Part shown: positions 29,692-33,555 of the stretch, in pieces
Layout: each line of letters opens with the position of its first letter
Numbering within the stretch: position 1 is the first letter of the stretch
Origin: an uncultured Bacteroidota bacterium
GTDB taxonomy: Bacteria > Bacteroidota > Bacteroidia > Flavobacteriales > Flavobacteriaceae
DNA length: 64,000 nucleotides
Reading direction: 5' to 3'
Assembly: GCA_902620455.1 (NCBI GenBank)
Contig: CACNIG010000007.1
Coordinates: 1-64,000, forward strand
Translations under genes and position numbers: made by a program
The notes under the pieces: model-generated
What the model saw: only the letters and a program-made list of their open reading frames with translations
Database searches by the model: none
What the model was told of the DNA's origin: nothing

Positions 29692-31089
29692 ATGTATAAT
29701 GAAGGAACTATAATTGCTCTATCCTCCCCTCCTGGTTCTGGTGCAATTTCTATTATCCGATTATCAGGAAAAGATTCTATATCCAAAACTGATAAATTTT
29801 TTAAATCTAAATCTGGAAAGAAATTAAAGGATTGTAACGGTTACTCTATAAGCTATGGGAATTTTTTGGCAGGTGAAGAAGTTCTTGATGAAGTATTAAT
29901 ATCACTATATAAAGGACCTCACTCATATACTGGGGAAGATGTTGTCGAGATATCTTGTCACGGTTCAAATTATATACAACAAGAGATTATCTCATCGTTT
30001 ACAAGTTCAGGAGTTAGATTAGCATCTCCAGGTGAATTTACACTAAGGGCATACCTAAATAACAAAAAAGATCTATCTCAGGCAGAAGCAGTAAGTGATT
30101 TGATTGCCTCTGAGTCAAAAGAAGCTCATAGAGTAGCAATGCATCAGATGAGAGGTGGTTATTCTAATGAGATTGAAGAATTAAGAGAGAAATTGATTGA
30201 TTTTAAGTCATTAATTGAATTAGAACTTGATTTCTCGGAGGAAGATGTTGAATTTGCAGATAGAAAAGACTTAAAAGATCTTTTAAATACCCTTGAGAGC
30301 AAGTTATCCGGTCTAATTGAATCATTTACTTATGGAAATGTTATTAAAGAAGGTGTTGCAGTCACAATTGCTGGTAAGCCTAATGCCGGAAAGTCTTCAC
30401 TTCTAAATGCATTAGTAAATGAAGATAAAGCTATAGTATCAGATATTCCAGGAACTACAAGGGATGCTATAGAAGATGTAACAGTTATTAATGGAATAAA
30501 GTTCAGATTTATTGATACTGCAGGCATAAGAGAGACATCAGATAAGATAGAATCTATTGGTGTTGAAAGAGCAAAAGGAAAAATTGGTAAATCTAGGGTA
30601 CTTATATACCTGTTTGATAGGTCAGATATTAGTGAAAATGAGTTAATAAATGAGGTGGAAAGCTATCAAAGAGATGATTTAAATATTTTTATAGTTGAAA
30701 ATAAAATTGATTTATTAAATAATTTAAAAACAGATAGTTACAAAGACAATATAAATCAATTAATTAAGTCAAAAAATATAAAATTTCTTCAAATTTCAGC
30801 TCTAAATCAAACAAATATTGAAGATCTTAGGAATGCTATTACAGAAGATCTGAATCTATCTTCTGAAAATAGTATCGTAATTACTAATTCAAGACACCTT
30901 GAAGCATTAAAAAACTCTCTTAATGCTATCGAGTCTGTAAAAAAAGGACTAAAAGATGGTGTTTCTGGAGATTTACTGAGTATAGATCTAAATGATGCTA
31001 TTATTAATATTTCTATAATTACTGGTAAAATAGATATTGATCATGACATATTAGGTTCAATATTCTCAAAGTTCTGTATCGGCAAATAA
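29692..31089 (+). CDS. mnmE: tRNA modification GTPase MnmE, disrupted neighbourhood at its 3' end
   Basis: With MnmG it installs cmnm5 on U34 of tRNAs. The 465 residues comprise an N-terminal tetrahydrofolate-binding domain (IIALSSPPGSGAISIIRLSG), helical domain, G domain (AGKPNAGKSSLLNAL, DIPGTTRDAIED, DTAGIRETSD, ENKIDL) and the conserved C-terminal FCIGK with the catalytic Cys. The last 18 bases (31072-31089) are repeated at 32927-32944, marking a probable island insertion that preserved the reading frame end. Confidence 0.98.
   Translation: MYNEGTIIALSSPPGSGAISIIRLSGKDSISKTDKFFKSKSGKKLKDCNGYSISYGNFLAGEEVLDEVLISLYKGPHSYTGEDVVEISCHGSNYIQQEIISSFTSSGVRLASPGEFTLRAYLNNKKDLSQAEAVSDLIASESKEAHRVAMHQMRGGYSNEIEELREKLIDFKSLIELELDFSEEDVEFADRKDLKDLLNTLESKLSGLIESFTYGNVIKEGVAVTIAGKPNAGKSSLLNALVNEDKAIVSDIPGTTRDAIEDVTVINGIKFRFIDTAGIRETSDKIESIGVERAKGKIGKSRVLIYLFDRSDISENELINEVESYQRDDLNIFIVENKIDLLNNLKTDSYKDNINQLIKSKNIKFLQISALNQTNIEDLRNAITEDLNLSSENSIVITNSRHLEALKNSLNAIESVKKGLKDGVSGDLLSIDLNDAIINISIITGKIDIDHDILGSIFSKFCIGK
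31072..31089 (+). repeat. attL: 18-base 3' end of mnmE
   Basis: TTCTGTATCGGCAAATAA encodes FCIGK and stop. It matches 32927-32944 in 15 of 18 positions, same orientation. The mnmE/trmE 3' end is, from established work on SGI1-type islands, an integrase attachment site. I call this the left junction of the element. Confidence 0.75.
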
Positions 31090-31322
31090 TTCTGACTTAT
31101 AAATATTACTCAATCCTTTATATATATTACTAAACAGTAGTATTTTCAATACTTTACAATTATTGTTTATTTATAAGGAATTATAAGGTTTTAGACATTT
31201 GTAGTAGCGTATAGTAGCGCGTTCGTGTAGCGCGTAGTAGCGTTTAGATAAAAAAGATGTTTTTCCAATACAATACATTATCATATTGCCATTTAGAATA
31301 TATTTTTTATAAATTGTAATAC
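31090..31322. other. 233-base left-end region of the element
   Basis: No gene seen on either strand. It holds an AT-rich stretch, a short tandem ATTATAAGG-like pair near 31172-31189, then the TAGTAGCG repeat block at 31202-31242 and an AT-rich leader before the nuclease ATG at 31323. It may contain integrase arm sites and the cargo promoter. Confidence 0.5.
31202..31242 (+). repeat. TAGTAGCG repeat cluster, left
   Basis: Three exact TAGTAGCG copies (31202-31209, 31212-31219, 31235-31242) and a variant GTGTAGCG (31225-31232) within 41 bases, much richer in GC than the surroundings. A related pair lies near the other end of the element at 32851-32868. The arrangement resembles arm-type recombinase binding sites; that reading is inference. 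Confidence 0.7.
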
Positions 31323-32288
31323 ATGGAACTCTTTAATTTTAAGAATAATAATATAAAAGAAGTAAAAGTTAAACCTTTTAAACTTGAAAAGGAGATACAA
31401 TCACTTATTGAAAAAAATACTGAAACCTTCTTTGACCTTGAATTTATTGCTACCGAGCTGACAATAGGTAATTATAGAGTTGACACACTTTGTTACGATA
31501 AAGAAAATAATTCATTTACAATTATAGAGTATAAAAAAGGTAAAAGCTACTCTGTTATTGACCAAGGATATACTTATCTACAACTTATGCTTAACAATAA
31601 GTCAGATTTTGTGCTATCACTTTCTAAACATTTAAATAAAGTAATTGATGTTAATTATATTGATTGGAGTCAATCAAAAATAATTTTCATATCACAATCT
31701 TTTAATTCCTATCAAAAAGACAGCGTGAATTTTAAAGATTTACCTTTTGAATTATATGAGATAAAGAGATTTGAAAATGATATTATATCATTAAATCTAC
31801 ATGAGTCTTCATCGAATGTTAGTATAGATTCTCTTTCAAGTTCAAATGGAAAGGGAGTGATTAAATCAATAACAAAAGAAGTCAAGGTCTTTGATGAAGA
31901 TGAAGTACTCTCAAAACTTAATGATGAAATAATACAAAAATATACAGAATTAAAAGAAAGTTTATTTTCTGAACTTGATGACTTAAAATTAATTGTAAAA
32001 GCTGGATATGTATCATTTTCTGTTGGTGGAAGAAAAGGTGTTGCATATTTAAATGTGCAGAAAAATGGATTTAAAATGCACATAAGAAGAGGACACATAA
32101 TGAATGACGGAACCAAATCAAAAGGATATTTCACAATAGATGATCCAAAAAAAATATCTAAAACAAAATCATGGACCTGGAAATCTGGTGCAAAAGGAGT
32201 GGTTTATGAGATTAGACTTGATAAAAATTTTGATATTGATTACATCAAATTCCTGATCAAGCAGAAATACAATAGTATTATAAATTAG
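31323..32288 (+). CDS. DUF91/NucS-like nuclease domain with C-terminal DUF5655
   Basis: 321 residues. Residues about 20-130 look like a PD-(D/E)xK nuclease of the DUF91/NucS type: D54 (in YRVDTL), E69-Y70-K71 (IIEYKKG) and Q81 (DQGYTYL) fit the D-ExK-Q pattern. Residues about 205-320 resemble DUF5655 (YVSFSVGGRKGVAYLNV, KGYFTIDDP, YEIRLD). No signal peptide; cytosolic. Likely a DNA-acting enzyme. It is the first gene of the element inserted at mnmE, and islands often carry defence genes, but no methyltransferase or helicase partner is adjacent. Function unproven. Confidence 0.75.
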   Translation: MELFNFKNNNIKEVKVKPFKLEKEIQSLIEKNTETFFDLEFIATELTIGNYRVDTLCYDKENNSFTIIEYKKGKSYSVIDQGYTYLQLMLNNKSDFVLSLSKHLNKVIDVNYIDWSQSKIIFISQSFNSYQKDSVNFKDLPFELYEIKRFENDIISLNLHESSSNVSIDSLSSSNGKGVIKSITKEVKVFDEDEVLSKLNDEIIQKYTELKESLFSELDDLKLIVKAGYVSFSVGGRKGVAYLNVQKNGFKMHIRRGHIMNDGTKSKGYFTIDDPKKISKTKSWTWKSGAKGVVYEIRLDKNFDIDYIKFLIKQKYNSIIN

Positions 32289-32292
32289 AGAT

Positions 32293-32802
32293 ATGAAAAA
32301 GCTACTATTACTTTCTTTATTGGTTTTATTTGGATGTAGTAAAGATGATAATAAAGGAAAACTATTTGAAAGATTAGAGGATAAGGTTTTTATACCCGAA
32401 AATTCTTCATTAGAAAATGCAAATCAAATCACTGAATTCGCAGAATACTTTCCAAATATGCCTGAGTCAAGAAATGCTCTTATCCAAAAATTTATATTTG
32501 AAGGTTTTACTGGACCTAAGTGTTTTGTAACCCCTGGATTTAACGCTCTTGATGCAAGTTATGAAATTGAAGTTCACAGCTCAGATTATATGAGAATGAG
32601 AATTAATGATGATGGTTCAATTTCAGTTGCTATTCTTGGAGAAAATCCACTGCGAGTTTCAGTTAAAGTTGAGGAAAACTTTGAAAGTAGTTATTTAAGT
32701 AGAACTGGAATGCCTAACCCAAATCAAACATTTAAAGAGATAAGTAGAGATGATGTTAGAACAATAACTGAAAGATGGGGTTGTTTACAATACTATTTTT
32801 AA
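32293..32802 (+). CDS. lipoprotein of unknown function, element cargo
   Basis: 169 residues with a clear lipoprotein signal (MKKLLLLSLLVLFGC, Cys15) followed by SKDDNKGK. I recognise no domain. The mature part has three Cys (in GPKCFVTPG, WGCLQYYF and the lipid Cys) and a VEVHSSDYMRM-like beta-rich middle (EIEVHSSDYMRMRI). It starts 4 bases after the nuclease-like gene and so is probably co-transcribed with it. A link between an envelope lipoprotein and a cytosolic nuclease is unusual. Confidence 0.7.
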   Translation: MKKLLLLSLLVLFGCSKDDNKGKLFERLEDKVFIPENSSLENANQITEFAEYFPNMPESRNALIQKFIFEGFTGPKCFVTPGFNALDASYEIEVHSSDYMRMRINDDGSISVAILGENPLRVSVKVEENFESSYLSRTGMPNPNQTFKEISRDDVRTITERWGCLQYYF

Positions 32803-32850
32803 AAAAGTTTAAATTATTTTCAACGAAAGAGGTTCCTTTATACTAACTTA

Positions 32851-32868
32851 TAGTCGCGTATAGTAGCG
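32851..32868 (+). repeat. TAGTAGCG-type repeat pair, right
   Basis: TAGTCGCGTATAGTAGCG matches 31202-31219 (TAGTAGCGTATAGTAGCG) in 17 of 18 positions, in direct orientation, 1649 bases away. It lies 58 bases inside the right att copy. Confidence 0.75.
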
Positions 32869-32883
32869 GAGTATCTATGATAG

Positions 32884-32906
32884 CTTGTTAAGTCAATGAT
32901 AACAAG
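32884..32906. promoter_or_regulatory. perfect 7-9-7 inverted repeat near attR
   Basis: CTTGTTA and TAACAAG flank a 9-base spacer just inside the right junction. This could be a recombinase or excisionase binding site, or an operator. No sequence-level proof of either. Confidence 0.4.
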
Positions 32907-32926
32907 GGTTTACAAAAAGAAAGATA

Positions 32927-32944
32927 TTCTGTATTGGGAAATAG
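32927..32944 (+). repeat. attR: second copy of the mnmE 3' end
   Basis: TTCTGTATTGGGAAATAG, read in the mnmE register, again gives FCIGK and stop. There is no mnmE similarity upstream of it, so this is a duplicated attachment core and not a duplicated gene. Confidence 0.75.
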
Positions 32945-33015
32945 AAAAAACCCTGTTATATTCAGTAAAATCAATACTTAAGAGATGACTACTTGTGTGA
33001 CGACTTTAAAAATGA

Positions 33016-33555
33016 CTAAATAAGTGGCTCAATTAGGCTTTTATCGTCATTTTTTGAATAATTGACTTGAGTTGATACAGGATAAAAATCAATTTCAATG
33101 TCGTTTATTTCTTTATTGAATGAACTCCAGTCTATTTCAGAATCCATTAAGGGCATACGATTATGAATATGGGTAATATTATCATTTGCTTTAGTTGTTA
33201 TTAATACAGCGCAATCGTCCTTTATTAGTGTTTTGATGAATAGAGTATCATATTTCTTAGAAAAAAAATAATATGGCTGTTTCTTGTTTCCATCACGTTT
33301 CCATTCATACCATCCATTAATTAGAGTATATGCTTTTGTATGATGTCTGAATGTAGGCTTGGACTTTAAAGTTTCTCTTTTAGCGTTGATAATCATTCCG
33401 CTTTTCATCCATGCCGGAGAATAACCCCAGTTAAGCACTTGAGGCTTATTATCTTCATTAACTACCAATATGTTAGTCCCTGGGGCAACGTTATACCTTG
33501 GTGGTAAATCGCCCTCTAATCGTTTAGTATTTGAGTAATTGAATCTCCCGCACAT
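33016..33555 (-). CDS. SOS response-associated peptidase (SRAP, YedK/HMCES-like)
   Basis: Forms a thiazolidine DNA-protein crosslink at abasic sites in single-stranded DNA. The hallmarks are present: Cys2 after Met (MCGRFN), RYNVAPG, NAKRET, E84 in GWYEW and H131 in HIHNRMPLM. At 179 residues it is shorter than YedK (about 220), mainly because the FAGLWE segment between the Glu and His motifs is missing or replaced. It lies just outside the right junction of the mnmE element. Confidence 0.92.
   Translation of the reverse strand: MCGRFNYSNTKRLEGDLPPRYNVAPGTNILVVNEDNKPQVLNWGYSPAWMKSGMIINAKRETLKSKPTFRHHTKAYTLINGWYEWKRDGNKKQPYYFFSKKYDTLFIKTLIKDDCAVLITTKANDNITHIHNRMPLMDSEIDWSSFNKEINDIEIDFYPVSTQVNYSKNDDKSLIEPLI

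Follow-up and report, generated by a model that had tools for sequence, protein, structure and literature searches.

A probable integrase-less, helper-mobilized element at the mnmE 3' end in an uncultured member of the Flavobacteriaceae

The mnmE locus and the unit downstream

The window analyzed here is a 64-kb stretch of DNA (64,000 nucleotides; contig CACNIG010000007.1) from an uncultured bacterium of the Flavobacteriaceae. All coordinates are positions in this window, and the genome it comes from is designated G000. The subject of this work is a 1855-bp unit that directly follows mnmE and is closed by a second copy of the last 18 bases of that gene. The locus contains the following features.

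29692..31089 (+): mnmE, the target gene (Pfam MnmE_helical, TrmE_N, MMR_HSR1)
31072..31089 (+): mnmE-proximal core (attL side), TTCTGTATCGGCAAATAA, the final 18 bases of mnmE
31090..31259 (+): left arm, with four GTAGCG arm-type repeats starting at 31204, 31214, 31227 and 31237
31260..31287 (-): degenerate inverted core at the inner edge of the left arm, from right-end model R1 and comparison with genomes G006 and G013
31323..32288 (+): cargo gene 1, a PDC-S18 candidate defence protein of DUF5655 type, 321 aa (PADLOC, motif)
32293..32802 (+): cargo gene 2, a predicted lipoprotein of 169 aa (lipobox-type N-terminus)
32846..32926 (+): right end of class A, with GTCG at 32853 and GTAG at 32863, 74 and 64 bp before the core
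32927..32944 (+): distal core (attR side), TTCTGTATTGGGAAATAG, 1855 bases after the first core

The reading frame of mnmE is intact despite the insertion at its 3' end. The two cores are identical at 15 of 18 positions, differ at positions 9, 12 and 18, and both encode FCIGK followed by a stop codon; the distal core is probably a displaced earlier mnmE end. An initial sequence-only reading had reported exactly this repeat, on the same strand and with three differences, and had described the unit as lacking an integrase. Both statements hold, as the 1855 bp between the cores carry two intact genes and no other open reading frame, and neither gene is an integrase or transfer gene. Every other site on the + strand in the 10 kb after mnmE is at least six mismatches away from the core. 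When the 5 kb downstream were shuffled 1000 times with dinucleotides preserved, five shuffles gave a match with three or fewer mismatches (p about 0.005), so the single repeat is suggestive and not decisive. The G+C content of the unit (27.7%) is close to that of the window (29.6%).

Cargo gene 1 matches the PADLOC family PDC-S18 over its full length (E 5.2e-95; residues 1-316 on 1-301 of 302) and gives weak matches to NucS_C, HSDR_N_2 and DUF5655. It is 38-40% identical to DUF5655 proteins of Acinetobacter plasmids and contains a nuclease-like D...EYK motif, while a sequence search of the PDB returned chance matches only. Defence activity of this PDC-S18 candidate is a prediction from sequence. 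The gene was not found in any of the 24 other same-genus genomes searched. Cargo gene 2 had no match in Pfam, NCBIfam or PADLOC.

Related units and their ends across the genus

DNA after mnmE was compared among same-genus genomes, 14 of which had readable downstream sequence, using a degenerate core (at most one mismatch) on the mnmE strand within 14 kb after the gene. Additional mnmE ends were present in nine of the 14, about a dozen copies in all and often in tandem; two of these nine, G019 and G005, are marine single-cell genomes. The background of the search was about 38 unrelated matches in roughly 26 Mb. This genus-wide recurrence of mnmE-end cores is the decisive evidence for the repeat.

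Units in the genus range from 0.4 to 3.5 kb and differ in cargo. Single units measure 442 bp in G016, 1369 bp in G017, 1447 bp in G005, 1777 bp in G021, 1855 bp in G000 and 3551 bp in G019. Two units occur in G011 (1478 and 2508 bp), in G009 (1586 and 2000 bp, with one more core about 10 kb beyond) and in G013 (1846 bp, then about 3 kb). The interval between mnmE and an SBF transporter gene, the next gene that many of the genomes share, varies in length from about 0.28 kb (G010) through 4.07 kb (G000) to about 14.5 kb (G009). Cargo elsewhere includes a nuclease with an N6/N4 methylase (G009) and an HSDR_N nuclease (G013), along with DUF418, SnoaL-like and lipoprotein genes; defence-type genes are recurrent among the units, yet other cargo occurs too.

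Of about 76 mnmE loci from other Bacteroidota, searched over up to 10 kb each, only three had a comparable core copy, and tandem mini-units therefore look like a trait of this lineage. In those other Bacteroidota, even loci with an integrase had no second core within 10 kb of mnmE, presumably because the islands there are longer. A lone repeat with a p value of this size might be put down to chance, or to local duplication of the 18-base mnmE end, the more so as one window offers many possible coincidences. The recurrence across the genus, the scarcity of comparable copies at the outgroup loci, and the arm geometry and shared ends described below all speak against such an origin, which we regard as highly improbable.

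An exact pair of filled and empty sites was identified for a sister cassette. In G016, the mnmE end is followed by 442 bp, a second core, and then the flank that in G022 directly follows the mnmE end; the two flanks are 91.5% alike over 400 bp from the first base. The mnmE gene of G016 is split across two contigs, the second of which begins 34 bases before the core.

The ends of the units contain a recurring arrangement of short sites. All five + strand GTAGCG motifs of the 64-kb window lie within the ends of the unit, four in the left and one in the right. The two ends also have a 13-mer in common, as occurred in 4 of 1000 shuffles. Identity between the left arm and left ends of G006 and G013 is 79-84%. 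By sequence the right ends form four classes, but they share one geometry: 11 of 15 have a pair of GT(A/C)G sites about 74 and 64 bp ahead of the core, compared with 0.26% of random places. Each of the remaining four has one of the two sites, and one of these four ends is truncated. Since some right ends are near-copies, perhaps eight of them are independent.

Class A comprises the right ends of the window unit, G013 (twice), G006 and a second locus in G005 (G005:C5). The right end of the window unit shares 96% identity with the G006 right end over 79 bp, while mnmE is 77% identical between G000 and G006; its identity to the other class A ends is 76-84%. The ends of the window unit recur in three other genomes, and in two of these, G013 among them, other genes lie between them. 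Both arms of G013 carry TTGTAG variants in place of GTAGCG, and such a joint change fits a single protein reading both arms. When the genus was scanned with the right-end model, all strong matches but one, in G005, fell at mnmE arrays or on contigs ending there. G005 has, away from mnmE, a class A right end whose core is degraded (L091:2649-2778; G005:C5), possibly an insertion at another site.

One end class may also allow the cargo to be inverted. In both G013 and G006, the right end adjoins the inner side of the left arm in inverted orientation, with the joint at an inverted core, although the arrangement in G006 is visible only as far as the contig end. We read these arrangements as a putative site-specific inversion of the cargo segment. 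The corresponding site in the window (31260-31287) is the second-best R1 match there, and at 8.4 bits (E 0.2) it is weak taken alone.

The array could instead have spread chiefly by homologous recombination in conserved flanking DNA (mnmE and the core genes on the far side), with the repeats as old scars. The flanking genes are indeed conserved around an interval that is highly variable between genomes, and some units are mosaics of pieces from other genomes. However, unit boundaries fall exactly at cores (G016/G022), arm sites keep a fixed distance from the cores, and flipped cargo has its joints at cores, which makes this explanation very unlikely in our judgment.

Several observations accompany the survey. 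A genome of another family in the same order, G027, has units of 632 and 988 bp with one main open reading frame each between three mnmE ends (G027:C5 290357-291994; L045); they have no clear GT(A/C)G arms, and no related integrase was present in the 14 kb covered. In 8 of 25 genus genomes (G001, G002, G003, G004, G007, G014, G018 and G023), mnmE was detected neither by protein search nor by Pfam MnmE_helical, suggesting real loss of the gene in part of the genus, though some genomes are incomplete (54-87%). Next to the window unit is an SRAP gene (33016-33555, -), whose position or orientation differs in G013, G005 and G006:C92; because its placement varies in this way, it may itself be variable island content.

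Integrases linked to mnmE

The G000 genome (1.24 Mb in 28 contigs, 95% complete) contains only two tyrosine recombinases, of 297 and 295 aa, which are taken as XerC and XerD because of their length and sequence. The sequence-only reading had suggested a search for an mnmE-targeting tyrosine recombinase elsewhere in the genome, and none beyond this XerC/XerD pair was found in the 95% complete assembly.

A candidate helper is present in a relative. In G008, a 378-aa tyrosine integrase (Phage_int_SAM_5 and Phage_integrase) lies about 170 bp after mnmE. Next come genes for two C5 cytosine methylases, a type II restriction enzyme in two parts and a protein of excisionase type; this island was read to the contig end, which comes before its right end. 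Over about 200 bp, the left arm of the G008 island and that of the G005 unit, which lacks an integrase, share 75% identity, and one enzyme therefore plausibly serves both. Of the 30 best relatives of the G008 integrase found in 398 genomes of the order, 19 sit just after mnmE. An mnmE-type integrase also follows mnmE at 25 of 74 named Bacteroidota loci, a non-random sample chosen by mnmE similarity. Integrases next to mnmE are thus widespread in Bacteroidota, which makes the mnmE end a frequent integration site in the phylum. In the integrase tree, linkage to mnmE is clustered, requiring 3 changes compared with 9.3 in shuffles.

A viral collection was searched with the G008 integrase, cargo gene 1, the core and three right-end motifs, and yielded no phage or helper; its two core matches were both in unrelated DNA without mnmE or an integrase nearby. 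The G006:C35 integrase (L083) was set aside: it is of another family (DUF6538), its contig has no mnmE, and contamination of the genome is 4%. A further tyrosine-recombinase gene fragment is located at a contig start (L084:60-389; G007:C1).

Proposed mechanism and comparison with known systems

We interpret positions 31090-32944 as a minimal, integrase-less and helper-mobilized integrative element inserted at the mnmE 3' end within an additive island, and assign this reading a probability of about 0.75. Sequence comparison supports an att-bounded element through the matched arm repeats, the occurrence of the same ends with other cargo, the absence of cargo gene 1 from the 24 relatives, and the integrase-bearing element of G008. 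We infer a helper integrase acting on these ends, circular intermediates and present mobility.

Under the proposed mechanism, an mnmE-specific tyrosine recombinase would be supplied in trans or by a neighboring helper element, for which the G008 island serves as the model. The recombinase would bind the arm-type sites at both unit ends, and recombination of the 18-bp mnmE-end cores would excise the unit and insert it in circular form. Where insertion takes place at a resident core, the mnmE end would stay intact and cassettes would stack in tandem by accretion, so that the region after mnmE would form an additive island whose genes are exchangeable and often related to defence. For one end class, the inverted core at the inner edge of the left arm would also let the cargo segment flip.

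A broader version of this model is tentative, and we hold it to be possible rather than probable. It envisages many small integrase-free units with standard ends circulating among small-genome ocean Flavobacteriales, where a few helper integrases would insert, stack, swap and flip them at mnmE. The outcome would be an integron-like store of defence and surface genes based on double-stranded att sites.

Several points weigh against interpreting the window unit as a helper-mobilized element. Its three-mismatch repeat reaches by itself only p about 0.005. An empty site of the kind that the sequence-only reading had anticipated in relatives was found, exactly, for the sister cassette and not for the window unit, whose 3' flank (32945-33075) was matched only distally, at the SRAP gene end. 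An mnmE-linked integrase is present in just 1 of 25 genus genomes, that of G008 is distant from the other mnmE-linked ones on a branch too long to place, and no integrase with class A (GTAGCG) arms was found. In addition, a model built without class A recovered the window right end as its sole match (E 3.8e-6), yet a core-free profile of classes B-D misses it; for this reason the test is weak support, and a single ancestry of the right ends across classes is not claimed. Much of a model score comes from the core, as shown by the 19.5 bits that model R2 reaches at the native mnmE end of G038.

Some of these points would suit a fixed remnant, in which a larger mnmE island, inserted long ago, was internally deleted to attL, attR and two immobile genes. 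The lack of an integrase in the unit or elsewhere in the genome, the missing empty site and the three differences between the cores all agree with this, as does the usual view of cis-mobilizable elements (CIMEs) as decayed islands (PMC5704250). On the other hand, several genomes have units of similar size that lack an integrase and whose genes are intact and paired ends conserved, the right end is 96% identical across lineages in which mnmE is 77% identical, and no integrase remnants were seen. We consider a dead CIME of this kind unlikely.

CIMEs retain attL and attR, lack integration and transfer genes, occur in tandem at gene 3' ends, and are described as decayed integrative and conjugative elements (ICEs) or integrative and mobilizable elements (IMEs) (PMC5704250). 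With cores and matching arm repeats at both ends and no integration or transfer genes, the window unit fits this definition. The region fits an additive flexible island, as repeated insertions at one site have extended it and its content varies between strains. The units here differ from described CIMEs in their size of 0.4-3.5 kb, their standard ends with varying cargo and their mnmE target in Bacteroidota. As regards decay from an ICE or IME, no remnants of integrase or transfer genes were seen in the unit, and there is an integrase-bearing element (G008) whose left arm is of the same class as that of an integrase-free unit (G005). The sequence-only reading had proposed an undescribed satellite-like or decayed element. 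Its integrative nature is supported, whereas the unit belongs to a family of small tandem cassettes instead of being solitary or merely decayed, and its general kind (CIME/additive island) has already been described in other taxa.

The ssrA islands of Dehalococcoides are also tandem units bounded by short (about 20-bp) repeats of one gene's 3' end, and 15 of 31 lack an integration module and were proposed to be CIMEs (PMC3146451). They differ in their ssrA target, serine recombinases (DsiB/DsiA), reductive dehalogenase cargo and phylum. Passages of PMC10872708 describe fGI-2 of Ca. Methylopumilus, which likewise combines a small-genome aquatic host with recurring 20-bp gene-end repeats and units of 330 bp and more; its target is tRNA-Lys, and those passages report neither an arm-site analysis nor a helper integrase.

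SGI1 shares the target and an 18-bp att repeat with the window unit, and the identification of the trmE/mnmE 3' end as the attachment site of SGI1-type islands agrees with the literature (PMC9035990, PMC5704250). SGI1 is an island of Gammaproteobacteria of about 42 kb that has its own integrase, depends on IncC for transfer and forms tandem arrays with other islands (PMC9035990, PMC5704250); the window unit, of 1855 bp and two genes, has neither the SGI1 backbone nor an integrase of its own. Tycheposons, as described in passages of PMC10872708, are 4-200 kb long, with a tRNA border and a recombinase. They resemble the present system in that a tyrosine recombinase serves cargo units lying in tandem or at a single site, but there is no tRNA in the window and no recombinase in the unit. 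Integron cassettes share that same likeness and use attC sites and IntI. No IntI-type integrase accompanies XerC and XerD in the genome, and no trace of attC sites was seen, without a run of an attC-specific model; the boundaries found are mnmE-end cores with arm sites. The present system is set apart by its mnmE target in Bacteroidota, by standard units of very small size, by the arm-site rule and by the putative inversion of cargo. No literature on insertion at mnmE in Bacteroidota was found in a search that left most subscription journals outside its reach.

Such units would allow very small genomes to gain or lose phage-defence and other accessory genes without mobility genes of their own, along a route exactly defined by sequence, with mnmE-linked tyrosine integrases, common in Bacteroidota, as the likely helper. 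With the att-site rules (an 18-bp core with arm sites at -74/-64), metagenomes can be searched for such cassettes and trans-mobilization can be tested directly.

Away from the gene, an mnmE-end-like core also occurs in seven genomes, five of which lack mnmE, in one intergenic spot flanked by a large beta-propeller-like gene and a ribosomal-protein cluster; most other genomes do not have it. Copies are located at L087:7208-7225, L088:7444-7461, L089:8277-8358, L090:131-148 and L094:6324-6341, with the same locus in L260 (G005) and L263 (G008). The class B motif GTTACT precedes this intergenic core in several genomes, and the core is possibly a secondary attachment site or a scar.

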